Shown in pieces: positions 10,783 to 57,300 of a stretch of 64,000 bases of DNA. The notes under the pieces were generated by a model. It saw only the letters and a program-made list of their open reading frames with translations, was not told the DNA's origin and made no database searches. Numbering within the stretch: position 1 is the stretch's first letter; every line of letters begins with the position of its first letter. Source of the stretch: Paralichthys olivaceus. Lineage: Eukaryota; Chordata; Actinopteri; Pleuronectiformes; Paralichthyidae. The stretch lies in the NCBI RefSeq assembly GCF_024713975.1, contig NC_091116.1, forward strand, positions 12,740,986 through 12,804,985, read 5' to 3'. The translations under genes and the position numbers were made by a program.

Positions 10783-13220
10783 ATGGACGTGAGGTGGGTG
10801 ACGTTTCTCCTGCTGCTGTTCTCCTTCGATCAGGTAAACCCTTCAAACGTGGCGGTTCAAATGTTTGGTGTATTTGCACAGTTGCATTATTCTCATTGTG
10901 CGTTTTGGATGCTGCATGAAAACAGCTGCTGGTGGCGTCGAGCGCCGAGGCTGAACACCAGGAGAACGCTAAGCACGGAATCCACTCACAGAACCAGATC
11001 ATCAGGGCCCAGTACGAATGTTTCCAGATGATCAGTCGAGAGTCGCATTCGTCCAAAGCCAAAGGTGAGGAGCGGGCGGGTCAAAGGTCGTGGATTGGTA
11101 TTCTTCACACCTGGTGTCATGTGACCCCCGTGTCCCTCTGCTGTCTCCAGGGCTCACGTGCAACGCGACGTGGGACGGGTGGCTGTGTTGGAGCAGAACC
11201 AAAGCCGGAAAAAGGACAGAGCAGAACTGTCCAGACTTCTACAATGACTTTGACTCAAGTGGTGAATGGTTTGATTTCTGTCCAGAGGCTCCACGTGTTC
11301 CATTTCCTGTCAATCATGACGTCTCAAACGAATCAAATTCAAAAAAACAAACTTTTGAAAACTAGAAAAAAACCTTCAACCTTTAACTTCATATTAAAAA
11401 ATCTTTGCAGCACTTTTTGCTTTTCACTAACCCAAGCTCTGTTTACAGAGATGGTGTCCAAAATGTGCACGGAGGAGGGCGAGTGGTGGCGTCACCCGGA
11501 CAGCAACCGCACGTGGACGAACTTCACGAACTGCCAACGCAACACGACGCACCACAACGAGGTGAGCGGGAAGAAATCCTGCCCATGTCCTGAGTATCTG
11601 CAGAGGACGTTTGAAGACATGTCGGTTCTGTTTCAGGTGGCGATGTCCCACTTCTACTTGGTGATGATTGGTCAAGGACTGTCGCTGGTGTCTCTGCTCA
11701 TATCGTTGGGAATCTTCTTCTACTTTAAGTGAGTGTGACTGTACTTCACCATGCATCGTGTTTGTGTTCGGAGCCACTGGCTAGTAAAGCTTTAATTTTT
11801 TCGGCCTTCAGGAGTCTGAGCTGCCAGAGGATCACTCTCCACAAAAACCTCTTCTTCTCGTTCGTGCTGAACTCCGTCATCACCGTGGTCATGCTGAACA
11901 CGCTGAAGGACAAACCGGGACACAACAACAACGACTCCGTGAGCTGTAAGCTGGTCATATTCATCCACATGTACCTGCTGAGCTGCAACTACTTCTGGAT
12001 GCTGTGCGAGGGGATCTACCTGCACACGCTCATCGTCGTGGCCGTGTTCGCAGAGAAACAACACCTCATATGGTATTACATGCTGGGCTGGGGTGAGTAA
12101 GCACTTCCATTTGCACTGTTGCACGTTCATGTGACTTAAAGCTCGGATCTCCTCGATGCTCTGCTTTGATTTTTTTCAGGATTTCCCCTCATGCCTGCAG
12201 TGGTTTACTGCATAGCTCGTCACTTTTACTACGACGACAAGTGAGTCTTCTTTCATCCTTGTGGGAAACTTGTGTATTTCACGTATCACTGAGCTGATCT
12301 GGTTCCTGCTTTCACAGATGCTGGATCAGTCCGACGTCCCTGCTGTACATTATCCATGGCCCCATGTGTGCTGCGCTGGTGGTAAGAGCTGAACTCTGAC
12401 CCCCTGCACCATCGCACACACGTGCGACTTTCGAACCTTTTAAATCGGCATCTTTTTCCAGGTGAACCTTTTCTTCCTCCTGAACATCGTGCGGGTTCTC
12501 ATCACCAAGCTGAGGGTGACGCACCAGGCCGAGTCCAGCCTGTACATGAGGGCGGTGAGGGCCACGCTGATCCTCATCCCGCTGCTCGGCATCCAGTTCG
12601 TCCTGTTACCCTACAAGCCCCAGGAGCACTGGATCACTGAGATCTACATGTACATCATGGAGATCCTCATGCACTACCAGGTCAGGAGGAGGTGCATGGT
12701 CGGATGCATTGACAGTTGTATTAACGAGAGTTTAGATTGAATCCACAGAGACGTTACTGTGCAGGAGGTTTTTCCTTCTTGTGTATTTCTTTTACTGATT
12801 TCATTTCCCCTTCACGTGCAGGGTCTCCTGGTTTCTACAATATTCTGCTTCTTCAACGGGGAGGTGAGTAATCAGCGTAATTCAGAATGTTACTACGAGT
12901 ATCTCATATCTCAAGATTTGATGTTGAGAGGTAAAAGTTTCCGGGTATTGAACTTCACATGTGAACAGATGAATTTTACTTCACGTGACGACCCTGTTGT
13001 TTTCGGTCTCCAGGTCCAGAGCGTCCTGCGGAGACACTGGAACCAGCAGCGGATGCAGTTCGCCGGCACGTTCGCCAACGCCGACTTCTTCCGCTCGGCC
13101 TCCTACGTGGCGTCGTCTCTGACAGAGGTGCACCGCTGCTACAGCATAGAGAGCCACACCGAGCACATGAACAGCAAGAGCTACCCGGACATTTTCAGAT
13201 CGGACAGCCCCTTCGTGTGA
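10783..13220 (+). CDS. calcrl: Calcitonin receptor-like receptor (class B GPCR)
   Basis: Eleven coding exons: 10783-10833, 10926-11064, 11151-11261, 11449-11561, 11637-11728, 11812-12092, 12180-12240, 12318-12381, 12462-12680, 12822-12863, 13014-13220. They total 460 codons with every phase matching, giving 459 aa (human about 461). With RAMPs this family binds CGRP and adrenomedullin at the plasma membrane and signals through Gs. The product shows an N-terminal signal peptide, the six ectodomain cysteines (AQYEC, LTC, WLCW, NCPDF, KMC, TNC) with N-glycosylation sites NAT, NRT and NFT, then seven helices including [49 protein letters not shown] and [14 protein letters not shown]. Exon 12822-12863 is the 42-nt TM7 exon typical of class B GPCR genes. 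Teleosts carry several calcrl copies; I cannot say which this is. The calcitonin receptor itself is less likely from the GIFFYFKSLSC and [10 protein letters not shown] blocks. Confidence 0.93.
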
Positions 13221-15644: not shown

Positions 15645-16110
15645 GCGAGCAGGTGGCTCTCGAGCAGGAAGTTGAAGCGAGTTAAGCTCTTGTACTGAAG
15701 TAGAAAATAAGTCATGACACGTGGAGATATTCTGGAAAGCTGAAGAGAAGTTGTACAACGGAGCTGCCGAATATTCCCGGTAAGTTAGCTGCTTGCTAAC
15801 ACCAAACTAGCGCTCTGTTGTTGCTAACCTCCAGAGTTTGGTTGTGATTGTTTGGTTGTGATTGTTTGGTTGTGATTGTTTGGTTGTGATTGTTTGGTTG
15901 TGATTGTTGTGCCTCAGTGAGCTGGTTTATTAAGCTGAACAGAAAATGCTGATCTGGATTACTGACTGATTGTTCCGCACGTTTGTGCAGGCTGGTTTTT
16001 TGCTTCCTGGTCTTCATCCTCATCATCATCCTCATCATCATCGTCCTTGGTCTTCATCCCCATCACTCATCGGATTCAACCCCTTTATCTTTTCCATCCT
16101 TTTGGAGCCA
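15645..16110 (+). ncRNA. possible two-exon non-coding transcript
   Basis: A strong donor (TTCCCG|GTAAGT, intron from 15781) is followed 200 bases later by a good acceptor (TTTGTGCAG|GCTGG, exon from 15991) and a second donor (GAGCCAG|GTAGGA, intron from 16111). The putative exons carry no ATG frame of interest; a hydrophobic frame across 15983-16186 begins only with TTG. This is inference from splice-site strength alone, and exon 1 has no supported 5' end. Confidence 0.2.
15837..15906. repeat. 14-base minisatellite, five copies
   Basis: Five perfect tandem copies of TTTGGTTGTGATTG (70 bases). Perfect identity between units suggests recent expansion. It lies in the putative intron of the possible non-coding transcript. 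Confidence 0.95.
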
Positions 16111-21413: not shown

Positions 21414-22588
21414 TTATGAGAAGCACACGGGGCCAATGTCCAGGCCGAACTCCTGATCTGGATTTCCGACATCCATGGGGGCCAAGTCCACGATGGGCAG
21501 CCTGGCCGAAGTTTGAGTCCTGTACTCGATCACTGTCTTGCCCCAGTTTCCATTTGATTGCTGATGGAAAAAAAAGAGTTAAATCATTTAATTTCTGTCC
21601 CAATGTCCTCTAATCAAATATAAATATTCTGTTGAAGACGTACCGAGCAGCCGTCCTCGATGACGGTGTAGCGGAGGCGGTTGTTGCCCTGCGCTCTCAG
21701 CTCTTGGCCGTTGGAGCCTCTGAGAACCAGAGCTTTCTTCAGGGTGCTGCTGTTTGCGTCTTTATACGCCACGCTGTTCCTGCAGTGGTAGGTCACGCTC
21801 TGGTGCGACGCCGCGGACAACAGCTGCAGCAGCTTCATTTGAACGGCCACGGCATTCGGCAGCTCCTCCTTGTTTCCGTAGGTGAACTGAAAGTAGATGT
21901 CAGAACATGTCAAACTCAAGATTTTAAAGCTGGTGGACCATGCCCGTGTCCAAATACATCTTCTGGGAATCTTACTCTGGTTCCTCCGTTCATGTCGGCT
22001 CCGAACCACACGGGTTTGTTGGCGCTGGGGCTGGATTTCGTCCACCAGGCTTTGCGGGGAACATTTGCCGGATTGGCGGAGATGCAGGTTTCACCATTCT
22101 CCATATTACAGAAGACCCTGATGGCGTCTTTGGTGCTGCCTTGGTTTGGATCAATCCAGTACTCACCTGAATCAGAGTGAAGGAGTAAGATCACTTGGTC
22201 TTATCTATGCATATGTGATGTCTAGATAGAGAAAAACCAATCCCTCACCGCTCTTCTTCTGGGGGTAACACTGTTTAATGTCCTGGCAGGTTTTCGCTGG
22301 GTTCATCTTGCTGCCGTCAGGACTGCGCAGGTTCTGCAGATGTCCACTGAGGGTCTTCAGGGTGGCGTGGACGCCGGTGTCTGCACGTAGGGCGGCATCG
22401 TTCTTATTGGGAAGGGCTTCATCTTTCAACTCCGGGGGTGGATCAGCCGCCTCGAGGAATTCCATAACATGTTGAGCCTCGCCGTTCTCGTCGTAATCCA
22501 TCGGGGCGACCATGAGGTCTTCCACCATCGCAGAGGGAGGTCCTGGGGGGCCAGGAGGGCCGGAAGGTCCGGGCTCACCAGGTGGACC
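21414..22588 (-). other. col5a2: col5a2 C-propeptide exons (COLFI domain)
   Basis: Four exons in transcription order: 22249-22588 (340 bases; the last 18 helix residues, C-telopeptide and start of propeptide), 21976-22166 (191), 21644-21886 (243) and 21414-21560 (147, stop TAA at 21414-21416). The 191, 243 and final exon sizes are the standard vertebrate fibrillar collagen pattern. The fold is marked by [40 protein letters not shown] and [10 protein letters not shown]. This domain selects and trimerises chains and is removed by BMP1-type proteinases; an acidic Asp/Glu-rich linker ([20 protein letters not shown]) precedes it. Confidence 0.9.
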
Positions 22589-28500: not shown

Positions 28501-31500
28501 CACCTGCTGTCCTGCTGGTCCCTGGGGTCCGACATGTCCGGCGTCCCCTCTGGTTCCCTGCTGACCTGGACTTCCTCTCACTCCGGTCGGTCCCGCTTCA
28601 CCCTGAAGCACACGACACATTACAGGACAACTTCAGAATTCAAAATATTAAATTTGTCAAGTCCCAACTCTTTGTTTTCATTTTAAACTTTTTAGACTTA
28701 TGTGAGTTTAACATCGCAAGAAACCGTCTTAGATACACAATGTCGATGCATGAAATAAACACCGGAGTCTCCAGGGGCCAAAATAAAAGGTTTTATAAAC
28801 TAAATATGGATAAAAAAATGTAGATTATAAAAGATCTCACCTTCACTCCTGGGCTGCCGGGAAATCCTGGTACACCGGGGATTCCCAGTGGACCCTGTAA
28901 TCAAAGAAAAACATAATAAAACAAATATTCTGGTGACTGTGAGGATAATTGTGTCAAAGGCCCAAATAACTGCAACAAAACTTGTATATAGAGTTTGATT
29001 TTTGTTAGAACTGCTGGATTAACGAGGAACCACTAATCTAATGATAAACATATTGGTTCTTACCAGAGGACCTGGTTTGCCGACATGTCCGGACGCCCCA
29101 CGTTTCCCCTGAAGGAAGAGGAGAAAGAAAAGATGTCAGTCCTGCAACATCCTTTTCGTAGTCTTTATACGTTTGTCTTTTTAAACACATGAACAAGGGA
29201 GGATTTTATTCACCACAGGTCCAGTCGGGCCGGCTCTGCCCCGCTCTCCCTGCAGACCCGCGGGCCCCTGAAACAGACGAGTGTCGGACATGAGGCTGTG
29301 AATCACAAACACTGTGCTGATGTTTTTTACTGTGCGTTTCCTACCATGGGACCGGGAGCACCCATAGAACCAGAAGAACCAGACGCTCCCTGAACACACA
29401 CAGACAGAAACAACGAGAGGTCAAACCATCAGACGCTTTGATATCATCTACATGTTATATTTGATGTGGAGTACTTGGCTCATGGTGATATACTGATAAT
29501 GCAAGTTCGTACCTTTGTTCCAACGGTTCCAGTCTCACCTCTCGAGCCGAGAAGACCAGCGTTTCCCTGGTGAAGAGATTAAAATTCAGGGAAAACTGCC
29601 CGAAGTGGGAGAAGTGTAACGTATGATGTTAACTACACGCGTCTGACCTTGTGACCTTTCAGCCCTGGGAGACCTGGGAGTCCTGGGAATCCTCGTGCAC
29701 CCTGAAGAAAAGAGCCAATCATGAATTCCAAACTTGAAATACGAGAATATCCAGCACATATTTTTACAATATGAAAAATAGATCACGGCTTGATCTAAAA
29801 TACTTTTTGGTTTTGATTAATAATATTAATAGAATTCATTTGGGAGACAAGGTTACCCCGGATCCTGGATATCCTGGTTCTCCTGTGGCACCGGCTGCTC
29901 CAGGTTCTCCCTGAGCAGAACATTTTGAATATTTAAAATGACACCAGCCAGAAGAAAAAGAAAAAGATGTGGTAAAGATCTGTGTGTTTGACTCACGTCA
30001 GGTCCGGCTTTTCCTGGAGGCCCGTCTGGTCCTCGATGACCCAGCTCACCCTGCGGACAAACACCTTTAAACTCAACTTCAACATCTCATGTTCAGAAGG
30101 AAGTTTAATGACAATCGTCTGAAGAACAAATAAAATGTAAAACATTTAGTTTTCCCCACCATCTGTCCTGGATCTCCAGCATCTCCTGGAAGCCCCTGAC
30201 CGCCACTCGGCCCCTGGGAGCAGGAGATAATAATAATATGTCATGAATATGATTTAAAGACCTGAGTTAATCAGTCAAAGAAAACTGAAAACCTACTGGT
30301 GCTCCGGTGGCTCCTGGAGGTCCTCGTGGTCCTGCTTCACCCTGACATCACAACACGCTCTTTAGATTACATAGAAACGTCTTTACATCGTGTAAATGTG
30401 AATATATATCATCTATAAGCAGCTCTCACCCTTGTTCCTGTCACCATCCCAGCCACACTAGACTTCTCACCGAACCCTGAGGCCATCTGAGACACCAGCG
30501 GTCCCTGATGAGAGGAAATAAATTCATAAATAAACCCTCCGTGATATCACACACCAGTGAGACAAGGTAACCGGCCCTGACTCAGAGAAAGACTCACCCC
30601 AGGGGGAGAGATTTGGCCCGGGGGTCCTGATTGTCCTGGATTTCCTGGCACGCCGGGCTCTCCGTCAAACCCTGGAGGCCCCGCGAAGCCCTGCGGGTTG
30701 AATGGAAACGTATCAGAACATGTGTGTTCATGTTTTCAAAGGTGGTTGTGATGGTCGCCCACTGAGGACGTCGCCGGGATCGATTGAAACGCACCCGTCT
30801 GCCTTTAAAGCCTCTCGGTCCAGTGCTGCCCTGACCTCCAGGAGGACCCTGAGACACAAAGAGTACATGAAGTTATACGATAGTTGAAAATGACATCCTC
30901 CTTTCATTTCATCAACATGTGCAGACAGATGTTTTCTAATCGTCATAATGAATTAAACAACTGTGACCCTAATAAAGGCACAAACTGTTGGTTAAGACGT
31001 TTTAGTGCCCCCTAGTGTCCAAACTTGTGTACCTTACATATTATGTTTTATCCAGTTTTACACACTGTACATCCCAGAATAAAGTAACTGAGAGTAAAAA
31101 CCCACCGAGGGTCCCGTATGTCCTGGCAGCCCGACCACCTGCGAGAAAAAATGATAAAGAAAACAATTTTTTATCAACTGTAAAAATGATTTAAAAAAAA
31201 GCCAGGGACAGAGATTGATTACTTACATATGGAATATCACCAGGTTCACCTTTCTGTCCCTGAAACGAGAAAAAATTCACATTTAGATTTAAACGACAAC
31301 AAAAACAATTGGTTTTAAAAGAAAATGAATGTCAGAATGATTTACCTTGAAGCCCCTGATTTCTAAAGAGAAGGAAGAAAGAAAGTTTACCAGAGTTAAA
31401 CTTCACAATATTACATCAATTAATACACCAACAAGTACACCGACAGCTCGGATTGATAAAAAAAACATTGAACTCGATGTGACGTCAGAGCGGACTTCAA

Positions 31501-34500
31501 GGTGTGTCAGTACATTGTGACATCACGGTTGGGTGTGGTTACAGACACAGGAAGTAACGATGAACATGTGGATGACGAGTCTCACCGATCATCCTGCTCG
31601 CACTGGCGAAGCTGTCGCACACGGGGCAGCACTCTCCGTCGGGCGTGACGACCTTCTGACAGTTTGACACAGTTTCACACTTCACCTCATCGCAGATGGC
31701 GACGCCATTGTCACAGACGCACACGCTGCACGGCTCCGGTTTCCAGATGTCGTTGTGCTGGTGGACTTCTCCGTCCACGTCGCAGCTTTCGCCTTCGGTC
31801 TGAACTGCAGCCGCGACACAAACACGCGGGGTGAGTTTTAAAAGCCAAACAACAAAAGCCCTCGATACTGAGTTTGACTTGACGTTTACCTGCTGTGGGT
31901 TCGGCGCTGGGAGCCGACGTCGACGCCGCAGATAAGCACACGGGGCAACACTCGCCGTCCGGGGTCACCGTTTCCTGACAGGGACCGAGGTCCTCGCACA
32001 CCACGTCCTCGCACACGGCGGTCCCCATGTCGCACACGCAGATCCGACACGGCTCGGGGTTCCACATGTCGTTGTTGGCGTAAACTTTTCCATTTTCTGT
32101 ACAGGTGTCTGCATGAAACAGAAAATCAATTAGTATGAAATTTCAGGATTTAAAGCAAAAGTTTCACAAAATGTAAAACTTTCCTTGAAATAGTAAATCT
32201 TAAATGCTAATAGCAAACATGCGTAACATTTCTACACAACAAGAGAAGTAGTCCTGTTTTTCCAAATTCCCTATGTGTAGATTTGTTTTCCTGTAAATTA
32301 TTCTAATAGAAGGAGTTTTGGTGTAAATTCTACACATAGGGATCTAAAACAGTGCAGCTTATTTTGAAGGAAGGAACTGGTCATTTAAAAAGTGCAATGA
32401 ACAGCACAACACAAAACACGGTGAAGGTGGAAGTTCCCAGAGGAATACACCTCATCAGGTAAACGAGTTACTTGCTCAACGTCCTTTGTGTGGCGGTAAA
32501 ACCGGTAGCAGCTCCGATACGCATTTAATCTGCCGATGGAGTTGCTGCCAAAGTTTCCGCTGCACAGAAGTTCATTGAGAAGTGAAAAAAAAAACTCAAT
32601 GTATTCCTTTTTGCAAACTGAAGGGAAACTCAGAGAGATTTAAAAAAAAACAACATTTTGAGGTGGTGCGCACAGGATGGAGCCCGAAGAGGAGGAGCAG
32701 GCGATGAAGAGCAACAGTCCTGACACAGATGTGAAGGTTGACGGTTTCAAACAAAACCAAAACGCAGCCACAGAAAATCTGCAGGCGACAAAACAACCTC
32801 GGGACGTTCAGTTTACCGGAGCCTGCGTCCGGGCGCAGTTCTGCAGCCGAGCACACGGGGCAGCACTCGCCCTCTGGGGTCTCTGTGGCCTGGCAGTCGC
32901 CTACATCCTCGCACACCACGTCCTCACAGACCACCGTCCCCATGTCACACATACAAACCCGACACGGCTCCGGGGACCATATCTGATAGTTGGAGTAGAG
33001 TTTGCCGTCCTCCGAGCAGGAATCTTTGTGAAAAACAAACATCTGACACAGTCGGTGCAAAGAACCTGGACCTGGGAAATGTTTAGTTTGGTCCATGTCC
33101 CATCTGCTAACATGGAGGAGGAAGGGTCATGACCTATACAGCAGCCCGCCGTCAGACCGCCTCTCCTCTAAACACCAGGTTTAAAACGGTTCTTAAATAT
33201 TTATTACCAGTTTTACGATCCGTGCTGGGAGGAGGTGGTGCGGCGGTCGAGCACACGGGGCAACACTCGCCCTCGGGGGCCTCGGCTGCGGGACAGTCCC
33301 CGAGCTCCTCGCACACCACTTCCTCACACACCACAGTCCCCGTGTCGCACACGCACACTCGACACGGCTCTGGGCTCCAGGTCTGATAGTGGGAGTAGGC
33401 GGTGCCGTTTTCGGTGCAGGCACCTTCACGAGACAGAACATCAGTCAGAGCCGAGGCTGATTCCCCTCGGGCGGAGTCTGAGTCATCATTATGGGGGTTT
33501 TCAGTCATAGGGTCTGCGAGCGTCTGCGAACCAGACAAACAGCTTCCCTCTCGACACGAACATGAGCTGCAGGCTTTTCTGTGAAGGTTTTACAAATACA
33601 AGCAGCTTCTGCCTGCAGCCGTTATGTTTCAGGATGTCTCAAGAGCGTCTTCACGGTATTTAAACGTTCACTCAGATGCACTGATTCGATTGATTGTTGA
33701 TCAGAGGTCAAAGGTCACGTGTTTTACATCTCGTGAATGCAACGTCGAGGGAATTAGAAAACATAAACGCAGGTTTTTTAAATGTGCGTAAACCCTTAAA
33801 AAAGAAAAATCTGTATTTCTGGTTTTCACTGAAGCATATTCAAAGTCTGGACTTGCATCATCGTCTCCACAAGTTTAAAACTGTTATGATTCCTGTGGCC
33901 CTGCACTGTGCGCTGCACACGGACCTGGTTTCCTCAGCTTCAATTGTGGAGGCTGCGGTGACGCTTCAACAACCGAGGCCAGAGGCAGAGGAGAGAGAGA
34001 GAGATAAACAGTTTCCACCTGCAGCCGCGCTTCCTGTTCATGGAGAAGATTCGTAGGCCGAGAGCAGAAACGATCTTCGGGGGGTCAGAAAAAGACTAAA
34101 ACCAGGTTTTTAACTTCAGAGAAATTAAACTATGAACATAAACATGTACTTTGTGCAGCTTCAAGACCAAAACAGCAGCTCTCAGTCAAACTCTCTAACC
34201 TGGGAACTAACAGGATTCACTCAACGTGACCTCTGACCTTTCCTCCTCAGCCGGGTGCACCTCCAAACTCAAAACGTGCAGTTTGGCCTCAGGTCTCAGG
34301 GTTGCAGGGACGCAGCGGACTCAGATCAGAGATACGATCGGAGAAAAGCCCCATAATGACGTGTTATACCAACAGGAAGGAGCCGGCAGGTGTCGGGTAT
34401 AACCAGAGAATGAAGGTGCGACAGCGGTGACGTCCATTTACCTGCTTTATTCTCTGAACCGTGCCGAGGTGCTGCAGCGGAGCACACGGGGCAACACTGG

Positions 34501-37500
34501 CCCTCGGGGGTCGCGGCCCTCTGGCAGCCCCTGAGCTCCTCGCACACCTCGTCCTCGCACACCACGGCGCCCTGGTCGCACACGCACACCCGGCACGGCT
34601 CTGGGCTCCAGATCTGATCGTGGGGGTAGACCTTTCCGTTTTCGTGGCAGCTGTCTGAGTCGAGCAGTGAACATGCGGAGCTGAGGATTGTGAGGCTTCG
34701 CTCTGAAACCCTCGGTCGTTGTTTCAGAGGAAATCAGCATTTATCACATTAGCATCAGACTTGTGTGTAAATGTGTGTATTTCCATATTTAACCAACAGG
34801 CTGCAGCATTTATCACTGATAAATATCAGAACCATCAGCAGGTAGAAGTCTCTGTGTGGAGTGAACCACACATCTGCTGATTATGGACAGGGGAAGTTAG
34901 TGAAGAGCGATGGACGCACTCGGATTCAAGCTCTTCTCTGTCCTGAAGCTCTGTCCCCGACCTCGCTGAGACTCTTTCCAAGCAAAATCCTGCTAGAGGC
35001 CCCTCCGCCCTGACCCATGAGCCATGTAGACACCAGCTCCTGATTTAACTCCGGCCTCTCGGAGTCTCAACGAGTCCCAACAAGTATGAAGAGAAGCCAA
35101 CTTAAAGCAGGAGAGGACGTCACAGACAGACAGATTGTCCTCAGGATCTTTAAAAAGGGAATTCTGTGGATTTCAGTCGTCATGTGAAAATGTCCCTCGG
35201 CCTCTGGAGAATGAAAATAACTTGTATTTATAAAAGAGGAACTCTGTGAAACTTCGGGCGTGGAGCTTTAAAGACGAGAGGGAATCGACCACACAAGCTG
35301 AGACTATGAAGAAGCTACAGCGCTGCATCATGGGAAGTGTAGTATCCAGCTGAAGGGATAAAAAAAATCTCCTCCATCATCCCCTATATTTATACGTATA
35401 GTGCACATATATAACTTAAATATAGTTTATTATAGATTCAGTTTTTAGTTTAGAATTAAAAGAAAGAAGAAAATATTCCCCTCAGGAGATAAACCATTTA
35501 TACGTAAAAGTACAGATGTGGTTTGAGACTGAGACGCTTTAAGAATTAGATGTTCAGACACTTTCAGGTAAATCACCTCTGAGCTGCTCTCGAGCAAGGC
35601 AGCGACTAGACTGCGGTTGAACCTCTGTAGCCTCTGGCTGTGAACTAAACCCATAAATGTGTCTTCATGCAACCATCACTGTCTCTGACTGTGAACATGA
35701 AAGAGCATCAGACCCGTGGGTTTCACCACATCGCAGAAAATAAATGAAAGGTTTGTTCTAAAGAAGAATTTAATTTATTTCTTATTGAGAGAAAAAAGAG
35801 CTCTGATGACGAGTGTCGTCTTCAGGATGAAAACCTAAAAAAAGAAAAGAAAGCAAAAGTAAAAATGGCCACCTGCTGCATTTAAACTCAGCTCAGTGAC
35901 GTCCCTACGTACTAATTATGTGGTGGAGCCTCTCCCCGACAGAGAAGCTGCATTTCAGAGACGTGAGTTATTTCAGGGGAAACCGCAGAGGCTCTATTAT
36001 ACGTTGGGCTCAGGCAGAAGTTTGTGGTTTGATTTTATTTGAGCTCAGAGGTGCCACACCCGGAGGAAGCCTCCCGCTCCTCTCTCAATATTCAACCTTT
36101 ACTCCCTTTTTATTTGATTTTACATCAAACTGGAGCTTCTGAAGAACATTTAGAAAAGTTACCACCCAACAAAACTTTATGTTTTCAGGCAGGTGACTTC
36201 GGTTTAAGTGATTATTGGTTAGGTTTCCTTGAATAGCAGCTTTTTATTATAATAAACCTGTTGGTTAGAGATTGATTTGAATCTTATTTCTCCTATATTC
36301 CACTTTTATAATCCTTGTTTTACGTTATTCCGCAGCTTGGTCTCTTAAAAACAACACAAACTTCCAGTTAAACATTATTTTTTTTCCATTTCTGTGTGAA
36401 TTACTGGATCTTTACTGCAAACTGAAGGAAACCGTGTGAGGAAGGAAAGTTGCCTCTGTAGTTAAAGTGATTACAACCACCAGGGCCACAGGAGTTTAAT
36501 GTAACAGTGACCACTAACGACTACGCTGCAGCCGCTTCCAAATAACATTTACCCCAGTTTACTTTAAGTCTTATGAAATATCACGAAATGGTTTAAATTC
36601 ACTACTTCATTCTTTGTAATTTAGACATTAATTGACTTCCTCGGGTCACAAATCATTTTTTTATGTTAGCAGTTCATGAATCAGTTTGCTTTGATTACAC
36701 CTGTCCGAACCAGGCTAGCTATTCCCCTTCGATTCCACTCTTTATGCTAAGCTAAGCTATTTAGATTCTGTTGTGCAGATGTTAAAAAATCTCTGCAGCC
36801 GTAAACCTGAAACTGTTCAAGAGGTGAATCCTCATTTGTTAATCTAGGATTTGTATTTGTTTTTAACCACGGCTTGACTTTTGATAACGCTGCGCGCGAA
36901 GACGTCTGCTTGTGTCACGACCTCACGGAACCGTAAACAACCTCGGATCCAGTTTTCTCTCGTTCTTGCAGCTCGAGCGGAGGTGAAGAAAGTGAGTGAC
37001 GCTCTCCTCTCCTCTCGCTGCATGGGTGTGTCTCGTCTGCCTTTTGGCCCAAAGTCTGACCAAAATTAGTGGCCTGCTTTTGTCCGTCCCTTCCACAAGG
37101 CCACATCATTATAGCCGTGGCGCTCAGCACCCCTTCATTCAGCCTCGGCCTCGCACTGAAATAGCCCGTGCGCGGCGTTTAGCGTGCACTGTAGCGTGCG
37201 GGGAGGGGGGGGGGTGAGGTATTTTTGATCCAGAATTACAAACACTGGGACGTTTTATTTTAGAAGATGTGTTCGAAAAAGGAAACAGCCTCATCTTCAC
37301 CTTTGAGAAAAAGAGATTTTGCTTCAACTTTTTTTTTTTTTTGGAGCATCGTTAGATCTTGTTCTGCACCTGTAAGATTTCCTGAAAAGTTCACAAATGT
37401 TTGAATCACCTTTCGAACACGGGGCCTCATTAAGGAGGTTGTGAGTTTAACCTTGAACTTAAAAAACCTGCAGCTGCTGGAAATCTGGAAGAAAACACAC

Positions 37501-37917
37501 GTCCTATATTTTTTCTTGAGAGGAAGAAAACAAATCATAAAGCAGGGATGTGATGGGAAAAACAAACAGACGCATAAAAAAAAGTAAATGTGTTTACAAG
37601 ACTCGTCCGCTCAAACATAAATCTTCCACACGCGACATGAAAAAGAACCAAAAATGTCGAACGGGTTGATTTTATGAAAGTAAAGTCTGTGAGCAGATTC
37701 TTTTCAGCACACACACACACACAGAACATTATTTAATCCTGTTTTTATCCACTTTTGTATGAACCTGTATCAGGTATCAGCACAGAAAGCCAATCAGAGC
37801 CCGGAGGGAAGGCCGTCACTCACCTTTCTTGGTATCTTCCTGGCAGGTCACAGTGATCACCTGAGCCAAGGCGAGGGCCAGGCACACAGTAATCCCAGAG
37901 CGTAACGAGGGGCCCAT
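21414..37917 (-). CDS. col5a2: Fibrillar procollagen alpha-2(V)-like chain with five VWC domains
   Basis: Fifty-eight coding exons on the minus strand splice to 5382 bases, an exact multiple of three: 1793 aa. Order: signal exon (1-31), five VWC domains (about 32-389), short collagenous N-propeptide (390-466), telopeptide with [10 protein letters not shown] (467-491), a main triple helix of exactly 1014 residues (492-1505), and a fibrillar C-propeptide (to 1793). Extracellular matrix procollagen that would co-assemble into heterotypic fibrils. I favour COL5A2 over COL3A1, COL1A1 and COL2A1 from the telopeptide, the [14 protein letters not shown] interruption and the C-propeptide ([41 protein letters not shown]). 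Human COL5A2 has 54 exons, about 1499 aa and one VWC; four extra VWC exons account for the difference. It is head-to-head with pjvk. Teleosts may have two copies (a/b); I cannot tell which this is. Confidence 0.9.
22673..30341 (-). other. col5a2: col5a2 main triple-helix exons (42 exons)
   Basis: All exons are multiples of 9 (45, 54, 99, 108 or 162 bases), begin with a Gly codon and keep unbroken Gly-X-Y. From 5': 30297-30341, 30160-30213, 29997-30050, 29857-29910, 29648-29701, 29513-29566, 29345-29389, 29214-29267, 29064-29108, 28841-28894, 28504-28602, 28345-28389, 28151-28249, 28018-28071, 27814-27921, 27670-27723, 27472-27570, 27336-27389, 27098-27196, 26807-26860, 26657-26710, 26524-26577, 26222-26275, 26077-26121, 25875-25973, 25674-25781, 25506-25559, 25323-25376, 25146-25199, 24990-25043, 24728-24835, 24587-24640, 24428-24481, 24184-24345 (162), 23976-24083, 23773-23880, 23616-23669, 23424-23531, 23248-23301, 23018-23125, 22876-22929, 22673-22780. 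They give 996 residues; 18 more in exon 22249-22588 complete 1014. Confidence 0.9.
30430..31362 (-). other. col5a2: col5a2 minor helix and N-telopeptide exons
   Basis: Exons 31346-31362 (17 bases), 31227-31259 (33), 31106-31138 (33), 30795-30848 (54), 30598-30690 (93) and 30430-30504 (75). The 17-base exon restores phase 0 after the last VWC exon. The next four encode a short Gly-X-Y helix with one break (GDIPYVVG); the last encodes the N-proteinase site region and telopeptide [15 protein letters not shown], whose lysine is the likely cross-link residue. Confidence 0.85.
31586..34654 (-). repeat. col5a2: array of five VWC-domain exons in col5a2
   Basis: In transcription order: VWC1 34442-34654 (213 bases), VWC2 33208-33423 (216), VWC3 32817-33023 (207), VWC4 31890-32108 (219), VWC5 31586-31804 (219). 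Every exon is phase 1 to phase 1, so any copy can be gained, lost or skipped without a frameshift. Each encodes a complete ten-cysteine VWC with the shared core [12 protein letters not shown] or WNPEPC/WKPEPC and GECCPVC or GQCCPVC. Copies 1-3 share the WSPEPCRVC core and copy 4 is close to them (WNPEPCRIC); copy 5, next to the helix ([20 protein letters not shown]), is closest to the single mammalian COL5A2 VWC. Introns between copies are 1018, 184, 708 and 85 bases. VWC modules in procollagens and chordin-like proteins are known to bind BMP/TGF-beta ligands. Confidence 0.92.
32269..32341. repeat. inverted repeat, 13-base perfect arms
   Basis: Arms CCCTATGTGTAGA (32269-32281) and TCTACACATAGGG (32329-32341) with a 47-base AT-rich loop, inside the intron between VWC3 and VWC4. 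It could be a MITE remnant or an intronic stem-loop. Confidence 0.8.
34655..37823 (-). other. col5a2: col5a2 intron 1 (3.2 kb)
   Basis: The longest intron of the gene, as is common for fibrillar collagens, where first introns often hold enhancers. I see no exon in it. It contains a strong ZNF143-type motif (35325-35343), T and G homopolymers (37329-37342, 37207-37215) and a short CA run (37709-37722). Confidence 0.7.
35325..35343 (-). promoter_or_regulatory. ZNF143/SBS-like motif in col5a2 intron 1
   Basis: The minus strand reads ACTACACTTCCCATGATGC, one or two changes from the long ZNF143/THAP11 element ACTACAATTCCCAGCATGC. A 19-base motif this close is unlikely by chance; these sites usually mark promoters or loop anchors. 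Nothing else nearby looks like a promoter. Confidence 0.5.
37824..37917 (-). other. col5a2: col5a2 signal-peptide exon
   Basis: ATG at 37915-37917 (minus strand), 31 codons ending in phase 1 at a good donor. It encodes [20 protein letters not shown] then [11 protein letters not shown], a hydrophobic signal peptide followed by a cleavage-compatible TCQ and a charged tail. The start was chosen because it directly precedes the hydrophobic core and the exon joins in frame to VWC1. Confidence 0.85.

Positions 37918-39710: not shown

Positions 39711-39762
<52 letters not shown>

Positions 39763-39870: not shown

Positions 39871-39915
<45 letters not shown>
39711..39915. repeat. inverted microsatellite pair (TG)22 ... 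(AC)22
   Basis: TG repeat at 39711-39755 and AC repeat at 39872-39915, separated by about 116 unique bases. Since AC is the reverse complement of TG (shifted by one), the two arms form a roughly 44-base inverted repeat able to fold into a long hairpin or cruciform. It ends about 127 bases before the pjvk start codon. Confidence 0.9.
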
Positions 39916-43063: not shown

Positions 43064-46000
43064 ATGAAGTTCGCTTACAGAGTGAGTACGAGACTGTTAG
43101 CTGCCGTTAGCCACTGGGAGCTAACTCCACTGCATTGTGTGTATGGGAAGCAACGTTAGCCCAAACCTCGTTCAGTATTTGCTAAATTCCAGATGTTCTT
43201 GCTTCTCGCTCCTGATTAAAAACCGCTCAGCACGTTTTAAAGTTAAACTCTGGTTTGTTAGCATTCGCACTAAAATTCGGCTAAAGCTAAAACAGCATTT
43301 GTTTACATTATTTCATTAATAATTGAATGTGTTCCCGGTGTGTTTTCTCTCTCGACCAGGAAGTTCTGAGTGATTTACTGAATAATCCTCTGTGTGTTTC
43401 TGTAGTTCTCTAATCTGCTCGGTGCAGTTTATCGTCAGGGGAACTTGAGTTTCTCTAAAGATGGAAACGCTGTGATCAGTCCTGTTGGAAACAGAGTCTC
43501 AGTCTTCGACCTGAAGAAGTAAGTCACCAAATTATAAAAAACATGGAGGAAGGTAAATCAAATGTTCTGCAGGATATCATGTATGAGCAAACAGGGACAA
43601 ATATGGTAAATATTAAAGATGTGCTACTTTCACTTGAAGACGTCATGAAACCAAAATAACACTGAGATATTTCCTCTTTTGTCTTCTAGCAACACGTCTG
43701 AGACGTTACCCATCTCCACCTCAAAGAACATATCATGTGTGGGAGTCTCTCCTGATGGGAACGTGGCGATAGTAGTGGATGAAGGCGAGCGAGCTGAATG
43801 ACGCTTTCCTATAATGTGATGTCTAATAAAAAAAAACAATTTGATCAGGAGTTTGTTTCCTACAAGAATCCAAATGTGTTTCTGTGCAGATGGTGCAGCC
43901 CTGTTGGTCAGTCTCGTCACCCGCGCCGTCCTCCATCACTTCCACTTTCACAAGCCTGTGAGCAGCATCCGTTTCTCACCTGACGGCAGGTAAGAAGTTA
44001 AATTTGGCTGCTCCTATTAAACTTCAACATTTCACCGGCATTCATCAACAAAAATGATGCTGAACTTTTGTCCTTTTACGTCTCAGGAAGTTTGTTGTGA
44101 CGAAGGATAATGTTGCTCTGATGTACCACGCTCCTGGGAAGCAGCGCAAGTTCAACGCCTTCGTGTTGGACAAGAGCTACTACGGTCCGTACGATGAAAC
44201 CACCTGCATCGACTGGACGGACGACTCCAAGTGAGTACGAGGAAAAACAGGTGGACGGATATTGAAGCAAAGAGCTGATTAAAAATAAGGGAATCTTGGT
44301 TTTCCCTCAGGTGTTTTGTGGTGGGCAGCAAAGACATGTCCACGTGGGTGTTCGGTGCCGAGCGCTGGGCCAACCTCATCTACTACTCCCTGGGTGGACA
44401 CAAGGACATGATCGTGGGCTGTTTCTTCGAGAAGGACAGTCTGGATGTGAGTTTTTTTCTTCCTTCCTCTACTTTGGGATTTACTCTCAACAGATAAATG
44501 TGGTTTTACATAAAATATTAGACAGAAAATAAAGAGAAACTTGAATCTGTGTCTCCAGTTGTACACTGTGAGCCAGGACGGGACGCTGTGTGTGTGGGAG
44601 AGCGACACCGAGCTGGATGGCCTCGTCCTGAAGAAGAGCCGGGACAAACCGGAGCCACTGAAACAACGAGATGAAGGAGAAGAGGAGGAGGAGGAGGAGA
44701 GGCTGGAAGGAGAAGAGGGAGAGGTCATCAGAGGGAAAGCTGAACCCCCCAAAGAGAAGAAGACAAAGAACGTTCGATACAAGCAGCTGAGCAAGTAAGA
44801 AGTTAAATAGTTAAATAGAGTTTAGAAGAAGAATTGAAAAGCAGCTTCATTTTATTTCTTTTTTTTCCATCTGCAGACACTTCTTCAACAAGGAGGGCAA
44901 TTTTAACAACCTGACCTCTGCCGCCTACCACAAGCCCACTCACATCCTGGTCACTGGTTTCGCCTCCGGTGTCTTCCACCTGCACGAACTCCCAGAATTC
45001 AACCTGATTCATTCCCTCAGGTGAGAGAAACATTACGTTTAGCTGCGGAGTTAAAAGAATCAACCCTCAGAACTCTGCTGCCGTAGAAATGTTCATATCT
45101 GTAAATTCTATTCATCCTAAACTAAAAGGGTTTGTCCATAATAAATCCTGAATTTGTGTTTATTTTCTCTTCAGTATTTCAGATCAGAGAATTGCTTCAG
45201 TGGCCATAAACAGCTCTGGAGACTGGATCGGCTTTGGTTGCTCGGGTAAGAGTTCAGTGTGCGTCTCTGGGTCGTCGCCGCAGGGATTCATGGTTTCCTG
45301 CTGACTGATCGTCTTATTGCATTCCTTGGATTTTGGGGGGCTTTTGTTTCAGGGATGGGTCAGCTGCTGGTGTGGGAGTGGCAGAGCGAGTCGTACGTCT
45401 TCAAGCAGCAGGGACACTTCAACAACATGGCGTCCCTGGCTTACTCTCCGGACGGACAGCACGTCGCGACAGGAGGCGACGATGGAAAAGTGAGTGTGTC
45501 ACGTCTTCTAGTTTGGCCATTTCTCAAATTTAATTTGTAGAATGATGAGGTTTCTAGGTTTCTCGTTTTGAAATCTGACGTCAGACTGTGGTTTCCCTCC
45601 CTCAGGTCAAAGTGTGGAACACCAACAGTGGCCTTTGCTTTGTCACCTTCACCGAGCACAGCAGCAGCATCACCAACGTCACCTTCACCTCCAGCGGCTT
45701 CGTCATCGTCAGCGCTTCTCTGGACGGGACGGTGCGAGCGTTCGACCTGCACAGGTGAAGTAAAGCTCGTCCGCCTCCAGGATTTAACAGAGAGGGACAC
45801 TGAGGGGAAACAGGGGGAAGCAGAATGTGTTTGTGACGTCTGCTCTGTGCACCTGTGTGATTTACAGGTACAGGAACTTCCGGACGTTCACCTCGCCTCG
45901 GCCTGCGCAGTTCTCCACCCTCGCGGTCGACAGCAGCGGAGAGTTGGTGAGCGCAGGAGCCCAGGACTCGTTCGAGATCTTCCTGTGGTCCATGCAGACC

Positions 46001-48359
46001 GGCAGACTGCTGGAGGTATTCGCACGATCACACACATTCACACCTTTATATAATGTCCGTGTATCATTGCCTCATCTCCGTCTTCCTGTGAGTCATCAGG
46101 TGCTCGGGGGTCACGAGGGTCCAGTCAGCTGCTTGTGTTTCAGTCCCGTGCAGTCGATCCTGGCCAGCGTCTCGTGGGATCGCACCGTGCGGCTGTGGGA
46201 CATGTTGGACAGCTGGCAGGTCAAGGAAACGCTTCCGCTCACATCTGACGGTAAAAGGAGTTACCTGATTCTGGGACGTTTAGATTTTTCACTAGTGGAC
46301 TGTGCTTTTATCATACAGCCACAAGAGGGCACCAGAGTTTAAAAAAATTAATTCACTCACTGTGGTATCTTTCCCCCTCAGGCTTGTCGGTGACGTACCG
46401 CCCTGACGGTCAGGAGTTGGCCGTGGCCACTCTGAACGGGGAGGTCGCTATCTGGAACCCCCACACCGCCACGCAAACCGGCTCCATCGCTGGACGCCAC
46501 GACCTGCAGATGGGCCGCAAAGAGACGGATAAAATCACAGCCAAACATTCCGCCAAGGGCAAGTGAGTGTCACAGTCACGACATCTGTCCCCAGCTGTGT
46601 TTCAGTGTGGCTGTTTTGGGGGTTTCTGCATTAGATAAGGCTTTGATCCAGGTTGTGTGTTATTTTTTCATTTTGCATGAAGGTCCTTTACGTGTCTGTG
46701 CTACTCTGCGGACGGGGAGTCGATCTTAGCGGGAGGTCAGTCCAAGTTTGTCTGCATCTACAACGTGAAGGAGCAGATGCTCGTGAAGAAGTTTGAAATC
46801 TCCTGCAACTTGTCCTTCGATGCCATGGAGGTAAAAATGAAAATGTCCAGGGATTATGTAGCCACACACAATGTCGTGTGAAATAACTATGGTTTGCTAA
46901 TTTGAAAATATGGCAAAACGTGATAAATTTGATGCTAAAACAAAAAACTTTTCCTGTTCAGGAGTTCCTGGACAGGCGGAAGATGACGGAGTTCGGCAGC
47001 CTGGCTCTGGTGGACGAGGGAGCAGGGGACGGAGACGGCGTCAACATCAGCCTCCCAGGAGTCAGGAAAGGTTTGACGCCTCCTTCAGCAGCTCAGACCA
47101 AAAGGAATCAGTGATTTCTCCAACCTGATGTGGAGGAATCTCCGTTAAACGTTTATATCTTCTCTCTCTGTGTTTTTAAGGTGACATGAGTTCTCGCCAC
47201 TTCAAGCCAGAGATCAGAGTCAGCTCGCTGCGCTTCTCGCCCACTGGTAGGTGATAGATTTACAACTTCCTGTGCAGAAGAGCAGGAGTCCGCTGTCACA
47301 TGTTTCACTAAAGTGGCTCCGTCTTCTCTCAGGTCGCAGCTGGGCGGCCACCACCACAGAGGGCCTGCTCGTCTACTCCCTTGATGGTTCTATAGTATTT
47401 GACCCCTACGACCTCGACCTGGACGTGACGCCGGCCAGCATACGCAAGCAGCTGCGGCTGCAGGAGTGGACGTCGGCCATCGTCCTGGCGTTCAGACTCA
47501 ATGAAAAAGCCCTCAAGCAGGAGGTGTTAGAAACGGTGCCACACGAGCAGAGTGAGTGAACCACTCTTCAAACAACTTCATCTTAAAGCTGAACACGCCT
47601 GAACGCTCTGGTTTGTCTGTGTCCTTCAGTCGCGGTGGTTTGCAGTTCACTTCCTGACATTTACGTGGAGAAGCTCCTCGGGTTTGTGGCGACGTGTTTG
47701 GAGAAGTCGGGTCACCTGCAGTTCTACATGAGCTGGGCCCAGAACCTGCTCATGCTGCACGGACAGAAACTCAAGAACAGGTCTGAAGAATGTTGTGAAC
47801 GATTTGAAAGTGACACTGTGTAAGATGATTAAATCAGAAGCACTGAGAGCAAAGGGACAACACAGTCGTATCTCACATCTGTGCATTTATTCTGTTTTGA
47901 TATGATTCTGACCGACTTTCTTGGGTGTGCAGGTCAGGAGCCATACTGCCCACACTCCAGGCGCTGCAGAAGAGCATCCAGAGACACTTTGACAACCTGT
48001 CAAAACTGTAAGTCTCTGCTTTACCCTCTACTGTCTCATACTGAACCGAACGAACACCAGCGTTAAAAATGTAAAAATAAGAAGACGAGTCTACAACAGG
48101 CCCGACAGAGATGAGACACTAAAAAGAAGACACCAACATATATATATCATTCACACACGTGTACCTTCTTTGTGTATGCTTTCTGTAAAGGTGTGACTTC
48201 AACATGTACAACATCCGCTACGCTGAGGCCCTGTCAAAGCAGAGGGGTGTGAAGAGAGCAGCAGCGGAGGAGGAGGAGGAGGAAGAGGAGGAGGCTGATG
48301 AAGGGCTGTCAGAGGGGATGAGCGAAGCATCGTTTGATGAGGCAGAGATGATTCTTTAG
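43064..48359 (+). CDS. pwp2: PWP2 / UTP1, UTP-B subunit of the SSU processome
   Basis: Twenty-one exons: 43064-43081, 43406-43518, 43690-43784, 43890-43989, 44087-44230, 44311-44446, 44559-44794, 44877-45020, 45175-45245, 45353-45489, 45606-45754, 45868-46015, 46100-46250, 46382-46562, 46683-46830, 46962-47070, 47181-47246, 47333-47551, 47630-47780, 47933-48007, 48191-48359. They total 920 codons, 919 aa, which is the human length as I recall it. Nucleolar WD40 scaffold in pre-18S rRNA processing. Start MKFAYRFSNLLGAVYRQGNL is the family N-terminus. Two beta-propellers of WD repeats follow (for example GGDDGKVKVWNTNSG, SVSWDRTVRLWDMLDSW), interrupted at about residues 240-256 by an acidic Glu-rich loop (EEEEEEERLEGEEGE). 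Residues about 789-890 form the Utp12 helical domain (LLMLHGQKLKNRSG, LQKSIQRHFDNLSKL). The tail is acidic. Intron 3 has a GC donor. Confidence 0.95.
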
Positions 48360-54313: not shown

Positions 54314-57300
54314 ATGTTTTCACCGAAGTCGCCCAAAACCAGCGGGACCAGGGTTGAGTCCGCGTCGACGCGCGGCGCAGGGGAGCAGATCTGTATGGTT
54401 GAATGTGGCTGCGGGCCGGACTGCACCCGGGGACTCCACACTGCGGCCTGCGGCAGGGGACGATGCGCTCCGGACTTCCAGGTACAGAGGGGCCCTCCAG
54501 GGAACCGTCTGCAGCTCGTGTCCCATCAGATATACGTCTCCAAAGTCTTATTTTGAAGGGCTCATGTCCACCTCGTGCAGTTTATCCACTTTATTTTGGC
54601 GCAGCAGCAAATCTGATGGGAACCTGTTGAGCCACATGTTTTTCTTTCCACACCTCAAGTCCCCAAAACTATTTATTGATGCTTGAAAATAGGTTTCTAT
54701 GTCGTTAAGTTCAAGGGGTCATACTCACATTTAATATGTTATGATGAAATGATAACTTTAATTACACAGCGCCTTTAAAATCAGGGTTAGACAGACAAAG
54801 ACATGGACAACTCTGGTAACAACAATCAATCGTAAAGTCTAAATCCATAAAAAGAGTTGGAAGGAGACGATATTATCTAAAAGCAATAAAACAAAGATAA
54901 CAAGCTGATGTCCCAAGTGTGTGAAGAAGTGATTTATTATTAGTGAACTTTAAACACTTGAAATCATCTCCCCACAGATCCAGGCTACATTACAGTTTGT
55001 CTTAAACCATATTTATTACACATCAAATGTTAAATGTCTCTGTGACGCCATGCTCAAGGTCAGAGGACCCAAATGTAAACATGCACATACTAAAGTACTG
55101 CAGTATGAGTAGAAATACAAGTAACTGCTCAACAGAGGTCCTGCTAAAACTGTGTTTACTAGATTTTACTACAATTCACTGGGAGTCTTTTGATTTCTCT
55201 GAAAGATTTTGCAACTTTTGCACAAAGAAAATGTAAATGATCCTGCATCCAAAAAGATAAACAGCCTTTCCCAAGTGATTTTTCTCTTCTGGTGAATCAG
55301 CGGCTCGTTCTCTAAAATAAATCTGATTCTAAATGAAAACATTCTATAGTTTTAATGTGCAACAGGTTCTTCTAAAGCTTTAAAAAGTCAGAAACTGCTT
55401 CTTTATGCGGCCGATTACAGAAACAGTTGCTGAATCCGATGGTGAATCATGTGTAACATCTGTCCTCCAGTTACTCTGGAGGCTGAATGAACTTATTGTC
55501 CGAGCTCGTCTGGGCCGAAGCTGCGTTAGTGTCATGTAATCACACAGGTGACGTCGGTGGAAGAGGTCAGGGTCACGCAACGCAAACCGGCAAAGGGGTA
55601 GTTCTGTAATTCAGGTTGTCCAGTGTTTTGTAATTTAATCTTATCTCTGAAATGATTTGTGTGTTTGGAGAAGTTGCTCTTTGAACAGTTGAACAGCGAT
55701 CGTGAACTCAGCCATCACATTTCAGTGTCCGACTGTAACACAAAGGCTCACACAGAGATCCACGCACAGAGGTCTGCTCCTATAGACATTATTAATATGA
55801 AGCTGATTGAGGTTGTGGGTTCGAGTCCCATCTGGGGTGATTTACAGCTTTTGACCCGGCTTATGCAGCACAAGCTTCTTTTTTTTTTTTACATGGATGA
55901 AAATCAAAAGTGAGAGTCCATCTTCTCTCCTCCGCTCTGTGAGGTACCAGCGACTCTTGACTTTAAGCAGAGTCACGTTGTCGAGCTTATGTGGAGGCTC
56001 AGTCATGTGGTGTGTGTGTGTGTGTGTGGGGTGGGGGGGATGTCCAGAAACATTATTTTTCATATAAGTGACATGAAAGTTCAAGTGAAGACGAGAAGAT
56101 GTTGAAATTTATAAACCACCAAATGGGATCTGGTGCCTGAATTTCAGTGTAAGTGATTATGACCACGGAGACTATTCCTCACTTGTTTTCCCATAAAACC
56201 AAAAAGTTTGAGAGGTTTCAGATTTGATTTAGCGCCGGGGTTTCAGAGATCCGAGGCTGCAGAGCTGAAACAATGGTTGCAGGAACATTTTCCGAGCTTG
56301 TTGAGTCGTTGAACAGACGCTTCTTTGCGTTTTTCTTTCCATTCATCAGATCCAGCTGCACAGAGCGGACTAACGGAGCAGGACATTCAGAGTCGTCTTA
56401 GTTCCTGAGCCAGTGGAGTAATTACCTGGAACATAGGAACACTGTGGGAAACTACTGTGTTTGGTTTCGTGACGATTCTTCAGGGTCAAAGATCAAGAGT
56501 CTGTTTACGACAGGGATAAGCTGCGAATCCATGAATCATGGACCTGACTTCTGATAGCACCATTACCTCAGAGAGGATTCTGGATTTATTGCACAATATC
56601 ATACTGAGCTGTGAACAAAAGGCAGAAACATCCTGTACGATTTAATAATGTGCAGCTGACAGTGCAGTTTTGTCTGAGGGCTTTTCAAAATAAAGGCCCT
56701 AGGCAGCTGACTACTCATATTTTTGTGAAGTTGAATGAATGATTCTAATCAAGTGTCCTGAAATTGAAAGTTTTGCATTGATTCACTTTTCTTTTTTGAC
56801 TTTTTTTAGGGGATTTGCATTGATGTTGAGAATCAAGGCTTTGACAACTTGGCCTACGAGTATGGGAGCCAGAGTGATCTCCACCTTCCTCCCACATCTG
56901 CCTCCAGGGTGACGCTACACCTCCGAGGACTCTGCACCGAGCACCAGGCCCGGGCCATCGAATCCAGAACCTCCACGCTGAAGGGGGTACTCGGCATCAG
57001 CCTGTCTTTACCCAGGAAATTAGCCAAAGTGGACTATGATACCTCGGCCATCACAACCAAAGAGCTGGCCCTGGAGCTCCAGAGCCTGGGACACAGTGTG
57101 GAGTCGGCGGTGCAGATCAGGGTGGACGGTATGCACTGCCACTCCTGTGTGCAGTCCATCGAGGGACACGTCGCCGAGCTGCCAGGAGTGACATACATTC
57201 AGGTGTCTCTTCAGGACAAAGCGGCTCTGATTGTGTTTCAGCCTCTTCTAGTCACACAACAGGAGCTGAGAGACGAGATCGAGGACATGGGGTTCGATGC

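Follow-up and report, generated by a model that had tools for sequence, protein, structure and literature searches.

Five tandem VWC exons in the N-propeptide of a col5a2-type fibrillar collagen gene of Paralichthys olivaceus

The N-propeptides of the human fibrillar collagens come in four layouts, and a VWC module is present in four of the chains (PMC2852846). In human alpha2(V) the N-propeptide is described as having only one cysteine-rich domain and as being, apparently, processed by no protease (PMC3096658), and reviews place the N-propeptides of type V collagen on the fibril surface, where they limit fibril diameter (PMC2852846, PMC9320522). The spearfish alpha-2(V) chain (Tacol5a2, 1495 residues) is credited with "a" VWC in the abstract of its description, one sentence of the text having the plural "domains" (PMC11173678). 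A review of echinoderms states that the fibrillar collagens of vertebrates lack VWC (PMC10381214), contrary to these papers and to the gene described here. This gene is located on the minus strand, from 37917 to 21414, of a 64,000-nucleotide stretch of the Paralichthys olivaceus genome (assembly GCF_024713975.1, contig NC_091116.1, positions 12,740,986 to 12,804,985), which is the window analysed and to which all coordinates refer. It is an intact fibrillar collagen gene with five consecutive VWC exons (V1 to V5), and based on its sequence we assign it to the clade A fibrillar collagens as a five-VWC variant of the alpha-2(V) (col5a2) type.

The five VWC exons all have AG/GT borders and are all of phase 1-1. 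Each of their exact translations matches the whole 57-position Pfam VWC profile (PF00093), with E values of 1.2e-12 to 2.9e-14 and scores of 48.3 to 53.5 bits against a curated cut-off of 27.6, so that the five complete ten-cysteine exons which a first-pass annotation had placed from 34654 to 31586 are borne out. Each core comprises 56 residues with cysteines at positions 1, 19, 22, 24, 31, 36, 42, 52, 53 and 56, a register identical to that of the collagen IIA VWC, and the pairwise identity among the five cores is 50-75%. Comparison of the modules with the window by tblastn yielded 25 strong matches (five modules on five exons), the weakest with an E value of 1.15e-13; no sixth copy was found by this search in the 3.2-kb first intron or in the rest of the window, the next best match being short and having an E value of 0.11.

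The gene model, for which phase-consistent exons bordered by AG and GT were joined, is composed of 58 coding exons totalling 5382 nt and encodes 1793 residues in a frame with a single terminal stop and no internal ones; its computed length without V1-V4 is 1508 residues. The first-pass annotation had equated the exon count with 54 plus four, and of this sum the 58 exons, including four extra VWC exons, are present in the window; the mammalian counterpart gene has 54 exons. The main triple helix consists of 1017 uninterrupted Gly-X-Y residues. This is the length published for all six alpha-2(V) entries compared (spearfish, zebrafish, swordfish, human, mouse and chicken; PMC11173678, Table 2), and the alpha-1(I) and alpha-2(I) helices of spearfish have 1014 and 1015 residues, respectively (PMC11173678). 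In a search made with the C-propeptide exon 21886-21644 alone, all 81 residues matched collagen alpha-1(III) and alpha-1(I) structures (E 3.4e-22 and 9.4e-22), the five rows obtained including no alpha-2(V) structure. For zebrafish Col5a2a, 33 hydroxylated or glycosylated sites have been published (PMC9245515), 25 of which (19 of 22 Lys and 6 of 11 Pro) coincide with an identical residue of the present chain at one offset, the next best of 800 offsets giving 8; this comparison was made with the Col5a2a sites on this chain only and does not separate col5a2a from col5a2b. Helix length, modified sites and the dN/dS values given below agree with the earlier proposal of a standard col5a2-type gene with four added VWC exons, which are in frame and maintained by selection; apart from them the gene is an ordinary one of clade A.

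The single VWC that had been assumed for mammalian alpha2(V) agrees with the description of the human chain (PMC3096658). In the numbering of zebrafish Col5a2a the helix starts at residue 231, versus 489 in the present chain; the difference is 258 residues, and four modules amount to 285, which fits a zebrafish record with room for one VWC, a record that could itself be incomplete. The published data on spearfish and on zebrafish Col5a2a thus argue against five VWC modules in all teleost col5a2 genes. Because the human and spearfish alpha-2(V) chains are described with one VWC and the zebrafish numbering fits one, the five copies are taken to represent an expansion, specific either to the present lineage or to the paralogue concerned. 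Among the matches listed, no description of a fibrillar collagen with several VWC modules was found in the titles and abstract openings of open-licence papers; multi-VWC col5a2 models may well exist in gene databases. A pattern scan of a viral contig collection gave 55 matches, none of which was confirmed, and a scan of a genome contig collection gave 50, of which one, in a Gemmatimonas metagenome-assembled genome, was confirmed along 14 residues and taken as chance; the absence of useful relatives from both scans is expected for an animal gene.

Over aligned codons, V1-V5 share 56-74% of their nucleotides. Synonymous distances (dS) between copies range from 0.54 to 2.09, and the ratio of nonsynonymous to synonymous distance (dN/dS) is 0.15-0.50 in all ten pairs, with the highest value for V1 and V2. 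When V4 was subjected to a simple drift control, the frame and the ten cysteines survived in none of 20,000 sequences at d = 0.5, and at d = 0.25 the surviving fraction was 0.00065. All five copies are of old date and under purifying selection. Tandem similar exons are a usual site of assembly errors, and an artefact, in the form of an assembly duplication or of decayed extra exons, has that general point in its favour; here it is scarcely credible, since the copies differ by 26-44% in nucleotides, carry no stops, and keep all ten cysteines and the low dN/dS. The repeat layout also speaks against it: the only long repeat family in the region comprises five 199-nt copies, which lie on the VWC exons plus about 25 nt of flank, and the introns yielded nothing beyond short, imperfect repeats of 20-29 nt, of a type often due to chance. 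Chance or assembly error as the source of the five copies is judged very unlikely because of the dS and dN/dS values. Pseudo-exons and assembly duplication were accordingly rejected on copy divergence, dN/dS, repeat layout and drift control.

The number of modules had led the first-pass annotation to propose a BMPER-like array, BMPER also having five VWC domains, and in this form the proposal finds no support. A class of procollagen-IIA-like VWC modules, which includes BMP-binding modules of chordin and chordin-like 2, has been distinguished from the VWC1 of Crossveinless-2 (CV2)/BMPER (PMC6270503). With V5 as query, phmmer gave an E value of 8.7e-19 for the collagen IIA VWC versus 9e-4 for Crossveinless-2, and a profile of all five modules gave 1.4e-24 versus 0.024. 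In a Foldseek search with a model of V5, whose best match had a root-mean-square deviation of 5.1, collagen 2A chains (5nir, 1u5m) took ranks 1-3, followed by CCN3 at rank 4 and by 3bk3 (Crossveinless-2) at rank 7. Of the residues typical of the procollagen-IIA-like class, the central Gly after Cys1 and the Trp of the small hydrophobic core are found in all five modules. The column of CV2 VWC1 Ile21 holds I, T, I, M and I in V1 to V5, and that of the BMPER hot-spot residue Ile27 is occupied by Arg in V1-V4 and by Ser in V5, both columns resting on our own alignment, with the first loop possibly in another register according to PMC6270503; in this alignment none of V1-V5 thus has hydrophobic residues at both the Ile21 and the Ile27 position, as the BMPER/CV2 VWC1 class does. 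The BMPER-like class was consequently rejected on phmmer, profile, Foldseek, class residues and the Ile27 column, and we place V1-V5 among the procollagen-IIA/chordin-class modules. In BMPER, furthermore, VWC1 alone binds BMP and the other four VWC modules are described as not doing so (PMC6270503, PMC10326224), for which reason a count of five does not predict control of BMP. The analogy with BMPER is therefore one of count only, and not of class or known activity.

The non-collagenous N-propeptide has 370 residues, a net charge of -47 and a calculated isoelectric point (pI) of 4.12, and its modules are joined by linkers of 13-22 residues that consist for 53-75% of Ser, Thr, Pro and Ala; it is more than four times as long as expected with one module. 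In type I-III chains a small aliphatic residue precedes the Gln of the N-proteinase site (PMC12362006). At the presumed site of the present chain (30430-30504, minus strand) the Gln is preceded by Ser instead of a small aliphatic residue, which mildly favours retention of the N-propeptide. The reading that we tentatively prefer combines these properties. A col5a2-type gene would have passed from one VWC exon to five by tandem exon duplication, and its product would join type V heterotrimers as alpha2(V) does and keep its N-propeptide on the mature chain, so that its five disulfide-rich modules project from the surface of type I/V fibrils as a flexible, acidic string. In that position the array could act as an enlarged spacer that restricts lateral fibril growth and, through its procollagen-IIA/chordin-class modules, as a multivalent dock that holds members of the BMP/TGF-beta family with low affinity per module and gains by avidity. 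In-frame exon skipping, of the kind that COL2A1 exon 2 undergoes, may determine how many modules the chain carries, because the VWC exons are of phase 1-1 and the acceptors of V1-V3 are weak.

Several observations weigh against this joint reading of spacer and dock. A single site of ADAMTS2 cleavage has been located by N-terminomics within the N-terminal domain of pro-alpha2(V) (PMC12362006), because of which retention of the N-propeptide may be incomplete. Whether a VWC module binds BMP cannot be predicted from its sequence, and certain VWC modules are described as never binding (PMC6270503). The Tyr of the small hydrophobic core is present in four of the five modules, His taking its place in V5, and V5 is also the sole module modelled, from five sequences and with a moderate mean predicted local distance difference test (pLDDT) score of 70.1. 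In a neighbour-joining tree of the 56-residue cores the best grouping reached 0.46 of 500 replicates and the order of duplication was not recovered, for which reason no copy is named ancestral. Finally, an AG that scores higher than the V1 acceptor is found 161 nt upstream of it, and others lie 100 and 155 nt upstream of V2; none of these three offsets is a multiple of three, and use of any of them would shift the frame. A purely structural role, in which the bulky, strongly acidic N-propeptide restricts the diameter of fibrils or separates them from one another and takes no part in growth-factor biology, is less probable than the joint reading and fits the assignment of diameter control to the type V N-propeptide in reviews (PMC2852846, PMC9320522), the net charge and pI with the Ser/Thr/Pro/Ala-rich linkers, and the polar Ile27 column of all five modules; selection has, however, kept the ten-cysteine core of a class that includes the BMP-binding chordin modules, which a spacer need not do, although disulfide stability alone could account for the kept cysteines. 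We consider it unlikely that the retained N-propeptide forms a chordin-class multivalent growth-factor trap on fibrils, its valency set by in-frame skipping of the VWC exons with weak acceptors, and with a single gene controlling both fibril diameter and the availability of BMP/TGF-beta.

Splicing offers a further account, in which V1-V4 are usually skipped and the main transcript is that of a one-VWC col5a2, the long form being minor or limited to a stage as for COL2A1 IIA. Exon 2 of COL2A1 is alternatively spliced. With all five VWC exons of phase 1-1, each can be skipped, and any subset removed, in frame, which makes isoforms with fewer modules plausible. When acceptors were scored with an intron-only weight matrix built from this one gene, those of V1, V2 and V3 proved weak, with 5, 3 and 6, respectively, of the 52 other acceptors scoring no higher, and the stronger AGs upstream of V1 and V2 point in the same direction. 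On the other hand, the acceptors of V4 and V5 are ordinary (32 and 15 of 52), the donors of the VWC exons are not unusually weak except for that of V2 (7 of 51), the matrix derives from a single gene, and purifying selection on the modules would be at odds with their habitual omission. Habitual skipping of V1-V4 is, on balance, improbable; the preferred joint reading would retain skipping as a means of adjusting the module number.

Coding exons and domains of the five-VWC collagen gene in the window
Feature	Position	Strand	Remarks
Exon 1, coding part	37824..37917	-	start codon; signal peptide, assigned by eye; start of N-propeptide; ends in phase 1
VWC1 (V1) exon, exon 2	34442..34654	-	213 nt, phase 1-1
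VWC2 (V2) exon, exon 3	33208..33423	-	216 nt, phase 1-1; N-glycosylation sequon at residue 108
VWC3 (V3) exon, exon 4	32817..33023	-	207 nt, phase 1-1
VWC4 (V4) exon, exon 5	31890..32108	-	219 nt, phase 1-1
VWC5 (V5) exon, exon 6	31586..31804	-	219 nt, phase 1-1; adjoins minor helix; class Tyr replaced by His
Linker exon	31346..31362	-	17 nt; brings phase back to 0 ahead of minor helix
Minor triple helix exons	30598..31259	-	31259-31227, 31138-31106, 30848-30795, 30690-30598
N-telopeptide exon	30430..30504	-	Ser-Gln at expected N-proteinase site; last triplet opens main helix run
Main triple helix	22249..30341	-	42 exons (30341 to 22673) and exon 22588-22249 (helix end, C-propeptide start)
Remaining C-propeptide	21414..22166	-	exons 22166-21976, 21886-21644, 21560-21414 with stop codon

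The window also contains parts of neighbouring genes. On one side of the collagen gene, a FAM171 family C-terminal domain (Pfam FAM171A1-2-B_C, E 6.5e-35) is encoded at 2335-3690 on the plus strand, in what is probably the last exon of fam171b, the family member being presumed from gene order. On the same side, exons of a class B G-protein-coupled receptor (Pfam HRM and 7tm_2) were found at 10920-12100 (plus strand), the first open reading frame of which has the calcitonin gene-related peptide type 1 receptor (CALCRL) as its nearest PDB chain (E 3.6e-17). FAM171 and CALCRL genes are neighbours of human COL5A2, which favours the col5a2 assignment. Compactness and neighbouring genes alike suggest a teleost. 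The other side comprises a WD40 gene close to PWP2, followed by an ATP7-type copper ATPase. For the WD40 exons (45788-46342, plus strand), Periodic tryptophan protein 2 (PWP2) takes second place among the PDB rows and comes first among those whose matched stretches pass individually, and WDR75, which lies beside human COL5A2, is not among the best 60 of 403 PDB rows; this suggests that the gene neighbourhood has been rearranged. The copper ATPase of ATP7A/B type (56810-63287, plus strand) has two heavy-metal domains in one open reading frame, Copper-transporting ATPase 2 as best PDB match, and, further downstream, a weak extra heavy-metal-associated (HMA) piece below the Pfam cut-off and a hydrolase piece. 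Among simple repeats, a perfect 14-bp tandem repeat of 5.2 copies is located at 15836-15908, and perfect TG and AC dinucleotide runs of about 22 copies each (39711-39755 and 39872-39915), 116 bases apart, sit 1.8 kb upstream of the collagen start codon.

An alpha-2(V) chain with five VWC modules provides a natural test of the role of the N-propeptide. Extra VWC copies may alter fibril growth or the holding of growth factors, and should either the size of the propeptide or its binding of growth factors be important, an effect is expected on the fibril diameter or the BMP/TGF-beta signalling of an animal that has five of them.

Compared with known systems, the present chain resembles the one-VWC COL5A2/pro-alpha2(V) chains of human and spearfish in its 1017-residue helix, clade A layout, C-propeptide and N-terminal VWC, and differs from them in having five VWC modules and 1793 residues, versus one module and, in spearfish, 1495 residues. 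Chordin and chordin-like 2 are soluble antagonists with other domains, and the five-modules profile matches chordin (9rd6) weakly, with an E value of 0.0017; their VWC modules also belong to the procollagen-IIA-like class, some members of which bind BMP (PMC6270503). BMPER/Crossveinless-2 likewise has five N-terminal VWC domains in a row, but its VWC1 is of another structural class and is its sole BMP binder, whereas collagen-IIA-class modules are found here on a fibrillar collagen. Sea urchin fibrillar collagens also have serial small cysteine-rich modules in the N-propeptide, and forms with and without the array have been suggested (PMC2852846); their repeated unit is the four-cysteine SURF module, which is accompanied by one VWC, whereas here the VWC itself is repeated. 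The nearest solved VWC, by sequence and by fold, is that of procollagen IIA (COL2A1 with exon 2), which has the same cysteine register and is likewise encoded by an in-frame VWC exon; procollagen IIA carries one such module on a homotrimer (PMC9320522), and the present chain carries five, ahead of a helix of alpha-2(V) length.

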